Source of the DNA: Ensifer sp. LC163
GTDB taxonomy: Bacteria > Pseudomonadota > Alphaproteobacteria > Rhizobiales > Rhizobiaceae
NCBI RefSeq assembly: GCF_001695855.1
Contig: NZ_MBSS01000006.1
Span: 62,001-126,000 of the forward strand
DNA length: 64,000 nt
Direction: 5' to 3'
Below, in pieces: positions 36,072 to 37,014 of this stretch (the first letter of the stretch is position 1; each line of letters begins with the position of its first letter). The notes under the pieces are model-generated. The model was not told where the DNA came from. It was given only the letters and a program-made list of their open reading frames with translations, and did no database searches. Both the position numbers and the translations under genes were made by a program.

Positions 36072-36492
36072 GGCGAGCCTCTCCTTCATTGCTATCGGCA
36101 TCGATCCGAGCCCGTGTCGAGCGCGGCAAAAAATTAAAAATGCCGCCTTGCGGCGGCGCAGGCACTATTCCTATTTCGCAGCGCAATGTCAACAAAACCA
36201 AGCCTTGCAGTGCGGTCGGACGGGTCTGATCCATGCGACGAAAAAAACGCGCGGCGGGGCTTGCAAAAATGCAACGCCCACCGAGCAAGTTGGGGAAAAC
36301 TAGGAAATCGATTCGGCGTGATTCCCGGGACTCTTGCCACGGAGTCCGCCCGTCAGTAGGTTAACGTTCAATTACTAGACGCATGCGGCGGACCTAGTCA
36401 CCAAAAGTGTTATCGCGTTGCAGCTCCGGAGCTTTTCCGGAGCGTGGTGAGAGATTCTGCCATCGCCAACGCTGAGAACGGAGAGTGCAGAA
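36072..36492. other. Divergent intergenic region between argD and gcrA
   Basis: 421 bp with no gene. The argD side holds an A-rich stretch and the hairpin at 36142-36157. The gcrA side holds a cluster of GANTC sites, a CtrA-like box and a hairpin, described under the gcrA regulatory region. Confidence 0.7.
36310..36457 (+). promoter_or_regulatory. gcrA regulatory region: GANTC cluster, CtrA-like box, leader hairpin
   Basis: Five GANTC sites: GATTC 36310-36314, GATTC 36320-36324, GACTC 36329-36333, GAGTC 36342-36346, GATTC 36453-36457. TTAACGTTCAATTAC at 36361-36375 fits the CtrA box TTAA-N7-TTAA with one change. GCTCCGGA/TCCGGAGC (36423-36443) forms a perfect hairpin in the probable leader. 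GANTC is the CcrM methylation target in alphaproteobacteria, and CtrA controls gcrA in Caulobacter. Confidence 0.7.
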
Positions 36493-37014
36493 ATGAACTG
36501 GACTGACGAGCGGGTGGAAAAACTGAAGAAGCTTTGGTCCGAGGGCCTGAGCGCGAGCCAGATCGCAGCGCAGCTCGGCGGCGTCAGCCGCAATGCGGTC
36601 ATAGGCAAGGTTCACCGACTGAGCCTGCCCGGCAGGGCCAAGGCTGGCGGAACCACCGCCGCGACCCGGCCGAAGCAGCGCCCGACCTCGGCGCCGCGCG
36701 CTCCGAACTACGCGTCGCGCGTCACCACCCGCACGGTTACCCGTTCGGCCGGCGCAACCGTCCTCAAGGAAGAGGTCGAAGTCGATCTCGTCGCTGAACA
36801 GGACTTCCATATCCAGACGAATGTGGTCGTGCCGATGTCGCGCCGCCTGGAGCTGACGCAATTGACCGAGCGCACCTGCAAGTGGCCGATCGGCGACCCG
36901 CTGAAGGAAGAGTTCCACTTCTGCGGCAACGACTCCCCGGAAGCTTCGCCCTATTGCAGCTTCCATGCACGGCTCGCCTACCAGCCTTCCGCCGAGCGCC
37001 GCCGCGCTCGCTAA
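36493..37014 (+). CDS. gcrA: GcrA cell cycle regulator
   Basis: 173-residue GcrA-family transcription factor. N-terminal DNA-binding domain: MNWTDERVEKLKKLWSEGLS, ASQIAAQLGGVSRNAVIGKVHRL (helix-turn-helix ~5-45). A basic, Ala/Thr-rich linker follows, then the C-terminal sigma70-contact region with conserved Cys (RTCKWPIGDP, FHFCGND, PYCSFHARLAY). In Caulobacter, GcrA works with sigma70 at promoters marked by GANTC methylation and drives S-phase genes. GGAGAG precedes the ATG. Single gene between argD (divergent) and phoB (convergent, shared terminator). Confidence 0.95.
   Translation: MNWTDERVEKLKKLWSEGLSASQIAAQLGGVSRNAVIGKVHRLSLPGRAKAGGTTAATRPKQRPTSAPRAPNYASRVTTRTVTRSAGATVLKEEVEVDLVAEQDFHIQTNVVVPMSRRLELTQLTERTCKWPIGDPLKEEFHFCGNDSPEASPYCSFHARLAYQPSAERRRAR

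Follow-up and report, generated by a model that had tools for sequence, protein, structure and literature searches.

Conserved GANTC sites around the putative −35 element of gcrA in Hyphomicrobiales, a candidate methylation-sensitive core promoter

What reads a dense group of GANTC sites, the sequence methylated by CcrM, when it lies directly upstream of the gene for the cell-cycle regulator GcrA? The question is raised by gcrA of Ensifer sp. LC163, which is carried on a 64,000-nucleotide stretch of contig NZ_MBSS01000006.1 (positions 62,001 to 126,000; the window). A preliminary description of this DNA, made from the sequence alone, located five GANTC sites (starts 36310, 36320, 36329, 36342, and 36453) and a CtrA-like box, TTAACGTTCAATTAC, at 36361–36375, one base off TTAA-N7-TTAA, which we take to be the CtrA consensus, and every one of these positions is exact. 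The gene product matched NCBIfam model NF050816 (GcrA) with an E-value of 8.8e-46 and 156 bits, below the model cut-off of 280, in addition to the Pfam match given in Table 1.

The GANTC cluster and its conservation

The preliminary description expected about 0.6 GANTC sites per 150 bp, a figure that holds for random DNA but is too high for this genome, in which the sequence is depleted: the window contains 60 against a shuffle mean of 329, and 20 stretches of the same genome, 381.6 kb together, contain 478, or 1.25 per kb. At that density 0.19 sites are expected in 148 bp, and five were observed, all in the 183 bp before the ATG. For one given position, the Poisson probability is 1.6e-6 for at least five sites in 148 bp and 1.9e-7 for at least four in 37 bp, and no stretch with at least four sites in 40 bp or in 150 bp was present in the 381.6-kb sample, where the maximum was three in both. 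Given the depletion, the cluster is therefore more unusual than first estimated.

In Sinorhizobium meliloti, gcrA transcription starts at −122 from the AUG (PMC4414408). Transferred to the window, this start leads to a putative −35 hexamer, TTGCCA (TTGTCA in most named relatives), which, if the inferred promoter is right, is bracketed by GANTC sites 3 and 4, the former abutting it and the latter lying in the spacer; a consensus promoter scan did not flag this −35/−10 pair. These two are referred to here as core sites A and B, the core being GANTC-TTG-N4 to N7-GANTC and the strict core GACTC-TTGNCA-nn-GAGTC. Among 16 genomes of the genus, the window's own locus included, each of the five sites was kept in all 16, with none of the 20 fixed GANTC letters variable and one of the five N positions variable, against 43 of 90 variable columns at −300 to −211 and 6 of the 17 non-GANTC columns between sites 1 and 4. 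A wider set of 80 named Hyphomicrobiales loci, which are the best matches of a longer list, lean to Rhizobiaceae and near kin, and appear to include two organisms twice (L031 and L052, the same as L009 and L018), had a mean of 4.4 GANTC sites in the 300 bp upstream of gcrA, compared with 0.29 expected from their own flanks. The core was present in 68 of these loci and in its strict form in 62. At the Agrobacterium larrymoorei locus, for example, six GANTC sites fall in 220 bp, four of them at the 10/9/13 spacing of the window, around a core reading GACTC-TTGTCA-CG-GAGTC.

Conservation was also compared between the order and its outside. A gcrA match was found in 118 order genomes, from which two (G288 and G321, fragmentary or weak matches) and one locus with too little upstream DNA (L289, 132 bp) were left out, giving 115 loci; the outside set was the best 62 of 112 genomes with a match (full-length, E-value up to 1.1e-27), less one locus with 48 bp upstream (L138), giving 61. 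Divergent GcrA genes are therefore under-represented outside the order. At ten loci of this comparison the start codon was not recognised and the match start was used instead, and the 300-bp limit misses more distant cores, such as that of G296, 286 bp from the end of the gcrA match. Within the order, the mean was 3.16 GANTC sites, with at least three in 71 loci, the core in 38, and the strict core in 11; outside it, the mean was 1.16, with at least three in nine loci and the core in none. The contrast in core frequency has a Fisher P of 1e-8, which, like all counts and Fisher tests here, is uncorrected for shared descent. A whole-genome scan for GACTCTTGNCANNGAGTC matched 33 of 297 order genomes, including 12 of 13 in the window's family, and the match lay 145–286 bp before the gcrA match in the 12 matched genomes in which gcrA was located; the reversed control of the same scan gave zero matches. 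The cluster thus came through the comparison with related genomes on which the preliminary description had staked its reading, at the level of genus, named loci, and order, and the restriction of the arrangement to "this lineage" in that description was too narrow, the arrangement being found in several families.

What exactly is kept can be seen at site B. Anchoring of the loci solely on GACTCTTG placed an intact GANTC at +13 exactly, the position of site B, in all 36 anchored loci among 116 order-wide, with G at the N position in 22, T in 10, C in 3, and A in 1; in the named set, it was intact in 68 of 69 anchored loci and read GAGTC in 67. This near-constancy among the named loci, together with GACTC and GAGTC being reverse complements, would suit a reading in which a dimeric repressor or activator has GACTC-N8-GAGTC as its operator and CcrM plays no part. 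Order-wide, however, the N of site B is not G in 14 of the 36 anchored loci, so that the symmetry is broken while GA-TC is kept, and sites 1 and 2 are GANTC as well. The retention of GA-TC while N drifts between families points to CcrM recognition as what is kept at site B and disfavours a symmetric operator; a fixed dyad is ruled out by the drift, and the operator reading as a whole is very unlikely.

Methylation and the core promoter

Precedent for methylation control comes from Agrobacterium tumefaciens, in which gcrA has six GANTC sites in the 250 bp upstream and methylation by CcrM lowers promoter activity, an effect also seen in Escherichia coli with active CcrM, and in which overexpression of ccrM results in less gcrA mRNA (PMC11514494). 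As the authors of that work suggest, a fully methylated promoter may be limited in its recruitment of the sigma factor, and the replication fork would activate it by leaving it hemimethylated (PMC11514494). The lower activity of the methylated orthologous promoter supports the methylation-state input of the preliminary description for this class of promoter, and the window has an orthologous gcrA directly 3′ of its GANTC cluster; by analogy, the repression demonstrated in A. tumefaciens would be expected to hold in this strain. The genome also encodes a CcrM orthologue, with a RAMA domain over the cut-off (E-value 8.9e-18) and CcrM as its best NCBIfam match (E-value 1.3e-190, 633 bits, with the model cut-off of 830 not reached). 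The sites, their conservation, their geometry, and the ccrM orthologue are direct observations from these genomes. With hemE taken as the origin marker, the hemE–gcrA distance is 535–579 kb in five genus genomes (3–6 contigs, taken to be circular in four of the five genomes), not far from the 0.43 Mb reported for A. tumefaciens gcrA.

We consider it probable that gcrA has a methylation-sensitive core promoter through which its transcription is tied to the passing of the replication fork. CcrM would methylate both strands of the two GANTC sites bracketing the −35, plus the two sites just upstream, and the fully methylated promoter would give low gcrA transcription, probably because sigma70 is hindered by the N6-methyladenine that flanks the −35 on either side. 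Once the fork has passed, the sites would stay hemimethylated up to the late-cycle action of CcrM, an interval in which the promoter would be more active, hemimethylated DNA being its presumed active state. Such timing is consistent with past work restricting CcrM to the end of S phase in Caulobacter (PMC8116508). With gcrA about 0.54–0.58 Mb from hemE, this change would fall in the early to middle part of replication. Of the GANTC sites, the two in the core are presumably the operative ones, and the conserved bracket around the −35 gives the sigma-recruitment suggestion a possible physical basis. In Rhizobiaceae, CtrA at the start site and the small RNA EcpR1 in the leader would add repression.

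Several points weigh against this mechanism. The core is missing from 12 of the 80 named loci, three of which (L064, L097, and L107) have zero GANTC sites in 300 bp, and from 77 of the 115 order-wide loci, of which 35 still have at least three GANTC sites and 12 have none. The −10 is weak and lies 8–9 bp from the transferred start, which is slightly long; site 5 resembles part of a leader element more than it does a methylation target; and the reporter used in A. tumefaciens contained the whole 250-bp region rather than single sites (PMC11514494). The three named and 12 order-wide loci devoid of GANTC, together with the finding that some GANTC sites upstream of genes are non-regulatory (PMC8725594), would also fit sites kept for post-replicative repair or chromosome structure, or by chance, with no effect on gcrA. 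The conservation of the sites speaks against such a lack of effect, as do their siting no more than 20 bp from the −35 and the published response of the orthologous promoter, and we regard it as extremely improbable.

The A. tumefaciens gcrA promoter (PG) resembles that of the window in its orthologous gene and its GANTC cluster in the 250 bp upstream; it differs in that the methylation effect was tested there, and the available text does not take up where the sites lie relative to the −35 (PMC11514494). In S. meliloti, probably of the same genus as the window's strain, gcrA shares with the window a CtrA motif over the start, the −122 start, an EcpR1 target, and an NtrX site, and the available parts of that literature do not mention a GANTC cluster (PMC3616915, PMC4414408, PMC9223101). 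Caulobacter ctrA P1, ftsZ, and dnaA likewise have GANTC near the promoter, read out at fork passage; ctrA P1 is activated by GcrA, whereas the effect at A. tumefaciens gcrA needs no alphaproteobacterial factor. The methylation effect on gcrA (PMC11514494) and the CtrA motif (PMC3616915) are thus already in print, while the −35 bracket, its distribution within the order and absence from the loci outside it, the N drift, and the inverse pattern with DnaA boxes described below were unreported in the literature searched and may have been published elsewhere. The published effect concerned a 250-bp region; the comparison leaves two candidate sites, one on either side of the −35, and suggests that the effect is common to a good part of the order, rather than an Agrobacterium feature tied to its second origin. 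GcrA is a central cell-cycle factor, and the comparison makes the mechanism testable by two point changes.

Table 1 Features at the gcrA locus (positions in the window)
Feature	Position	Strand	Remarks
gcrA	36493..37014	+	GcrA cell-cycle regulator/sigma70 cofactor, 173 amino acids; Pfam PF07750, E-value 5.7e-66
GANTC site 1 (GATTC)	36310..36314	.	About −60 from the start; flanks C and G, giving a fit to YGAKTCK
GANTC site 2 (GATTC)	36320..36324	.	GAATC in 2 of 16 genus genomes: N varies, GA-TC kept
GANTC site 3, core site A (GACTC)	36329..36333	.	Directly abuts the −35 hexamer
GANTC site 4, core site B (GAGTC)	36342..36346	.	Inside the −35/−10 spacer
GANTC site 5 (GATTC), leader	36453..36457	.	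Within a GGTGAgGGATTC-like block; N and 5′ G nearly fixed
Putative −35 hexamer TTGCCA	36334..36339	+	Conserved between the core sites; assignment inferred from the mapped S. meliloti start
Putative −10 hexamer TAGGTT	36357..36362	+	17-bp spacer; 3 of 6 matches to TATAAT; inferred
Expected transcription start	36371..36372	+	Transferred from S. meliloti gcrA (−122 from the AUG)
CtrA-like box TTAACGTTCAATTAC	36361..36375	.	Overlaps the −10 end and the transcription start; equivalent in S. meliloti (PMC3616915)
TTGGGGAAAAC box	36290..36300	+	39–40 bp 5′ of core site A, about −74
Leader block TGCGGCGGACCTA, expected EcpR1 target	36384..36396	+	Conserved in the genus; begins 13 nt after the start; predicted
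Leader hairpin	36423..36443	+	Paired changes among relatives; just before the GGTGAgGGATTC-like block
CAAGCCTTG, candidate NtrX-type CAAN3TTG site	36199..36207	+	Sequence match
Promoter-like site of divergent argD, TTGACA-17-AATAGT	36164..36192	−	Consensus match only

GcrA, CtrA, and DnaA as candidate inputs

The preliminary description also proposed direct, methylation-dependent autoregulation, with GcrA binding methylated GANTC in its own promoter and activating or repressing gcrA. Site B would lie between the −35 and −10, the region that GcrA protects at methylated Caulobacter ctrAP1 (PMC3667746), and chromatin immunoprecipitation (ChIP) peaks of Brucella GcrA are 4.4- to 4.7-fold enriched in GANTC (PMC6813329). 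An extended context, YGAKTCK, has been proposed for GcrA in Caulobacter (quoted in PMC7987155). Site 1 fits this context, as do sites 18–19 bp 5′ of site A in 29 cases among the 68 core-bearing named loci, but the core sites themselves fail it in 135 of 136 cases (fits at site A 0/68, at site B 1/68), and the region is poorer in fits (49 of the 350 GANTC sites in the gcrA upstream regions of the 80 named loci) than the sample of the window's own genome (123 of 478). This motif test is weak, since no clear extended motif is reported for Brevundimonas (PMC7987155). The methylation effect in E. coli, however, needs no alphaproteobacterial regulator (PMC11514494), and the available parts of PMC3667746 and PMC7987155 do not mention autoregulation or the gcrA promoter. 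On the strength of the GcrA-free effect and the motif test, we reject direct autoregulation as the principal explanation and judge it unlikely; a GcrA input at gcrA is possible but unsupported, and unneeded for the published effect.

With up to one mismatch to TTAA-N7-TTAAC allowed and both strands considered, a CtrA box was present in 26 of the 68 core-bearing named loci, 20 of them in genera that we assign by name to Rhizobiaceae, five labelled "Rhizobiales bacterium", and one in Afifella. To judge from this distribution, the CtrA input is younger or narrower than the GANTC core. A strong CtrA motif over the start, on the opposite strand, and a weak TAA-N7-TTACT on the same strand were reported for S. 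meliloti gcrA in 2013 (PMC3616915), and a 2010 comparison described Rhizobiales as being without CtrA control of gcrA (PMC2877005). The main text, tables aside, of a CtrA ChIP study in S. meliloti mentions gcrA twice, once with regard to ctrA P1 and once in the references (PMC4433202). The position of the box and the S. meliloti motif over the start (PMC3616915) bear out that part of the preliminary description, and the CtrA input itself is graded plausible, in which case CtrA would bind the box in the window.

Upstream of the GANTC cluster is a further conserved element, the TTGGGGAAAAC box, which is also new here. It is exact in 62 of the 80 named loci and present as [CT]TGGGGA[AC]AA in 75, and none of its 11 columns varies among the 16 genus genomes; the degenerate form occurs in 53 of 115 order loci vs 1 of 61 outside. 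The distance from box to site A is 39 bp in 48 and 40 bp in 15 of the 63 loci with both box and core (68 being core-bearing). The genome itself contains two exact copies, the second inside an apparent coding sequence. In the literature, among the matches listed for the literal string, none was on alphaproteobacteria by title, which is not proof of absence from print. The three named loci devoid of GANTC (L064, L097, and L107) have a TTGGGGAAAA-type box, and are possible natural losses of the cluster. The fixed spacing would suit a protein that binds TTGGGGAAAAC or covers the cluster and keeps CcrM away from some of the sites, leaving them locally hypomethylated, and there are parallels in MucR, which shields some Caulobacter GANTC sites, and in the hypomethylated sites of S. 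meliloti (PMC5172544). The A. tumefaciens promoter, however, responds to the CcrM level, and does so in E. coli without such a protein (PMC11514494). Shielding is accordingly quite an unlikely explanation.

TTGGGGAAAAC is one mismatch from the DnaA box consensus, which we take to be TTWTNCACA. This consensus was absent from the 300 bp upstream of gcrA at the window locus and was found upstream of gcrA at 8 of 115 loci inside the order vs 18 of 61 outside (Fisher P 2e-4). In 29 class-level loci (28 outside the order and one, L118, inside), 20 boxes with at most one mismatch occurred in the 350 bp upstream, or 1.97 per kb, a rate made slightly low by L138, which has almost no upstream DNA, vs 0.16 per kb downstream. 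Canonical DnaA boxes are often seen upstream of gcrA outside the order (L113–L117, L126, L131, L134, and L140). At L116, also outside the order, CTGGGGAAAAC lies 188 bp upstream of gcrA and a canonical DnaA box, CTGTGGATAAT, 31 bp nearer the gene, at 157 bp, and since this locus carries both kinds, the reading of TTGGGGAAAAC as a DnaA box is weakened. Outside the order, at least two GANTC sites were present at 8 of 18 loci with a DnaA box vs 15 of 43 without, so that DnaA-box loci are not poorer in GANTC and the exchange holds as a contrast between orders but not as a rule inside an order. The Caulobacter gcrA promoter resembles that of the window in its replication-linked control of gcrA but has one DnaA box and is DnaA-activated (PMC3193534), whereas most Hyphomicrobiales loci are without a consensus DnaA box. 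As a tentative proposal, the DnaA box frequent upstream of gcrA in other alphaproteobacteria may have given way, at many loci of Hyphomicrobiales, to CcrM sites at the −35, a passive, protein-free clock set off by the fork through hemimethylation, with TTGGGGAAAAC as a reused DnaA remnant or the site of an undescribed activator of gcrA. The inverse pattern suggests a way in which evolution may have rewired the link between gcrA and replication.

Leader and neighbouring sequences

The S. meliloti EcpR1 site begins 13 nt after the gcrA start (PMC4414408), as does the leader block TGCGGCGGACCTA, and the repression by EcpR1 demonstrated there would, by analogy, hold in this strain. Within the genus, base pairs of the leader hairpin have changed on both sides together (G-C to A-T and T-A to C-G), and a stem of at least seven pairs was found in 39 of 49 loci vs 26% of shuffles, with a coding control at 32/49 and another control at 10/49, so that the statistics are modest. 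Of the 80 named loci, 69 have a GANTC counterpart of site 5 at about −26 to −56. As its N and 5′ G are nearly fixed, site 5 may belong to an RNA element rather than being a CcrM target. An Rfam scan gave two weak matches, both below the gathering score, one of them to the Atu_Ti4 small RNA at 36192–36263, between argD and gcrA (23.7 bits, gathering score 40).

In 79 of the 80 named loci the neighbouring gene is a divergent argD; the one locus without it, L100, is also without the core. The cluster as part of the argD promoter was ruled out, since a separate promoter-like site for argD lies some 120 bp from it. Between that site and the cluster lies CAAGCCTTG, a candidate for the binding of NtrX, which in S. 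meliloti binds a gcrA probe with CAAACCTTG (PMC9223101).
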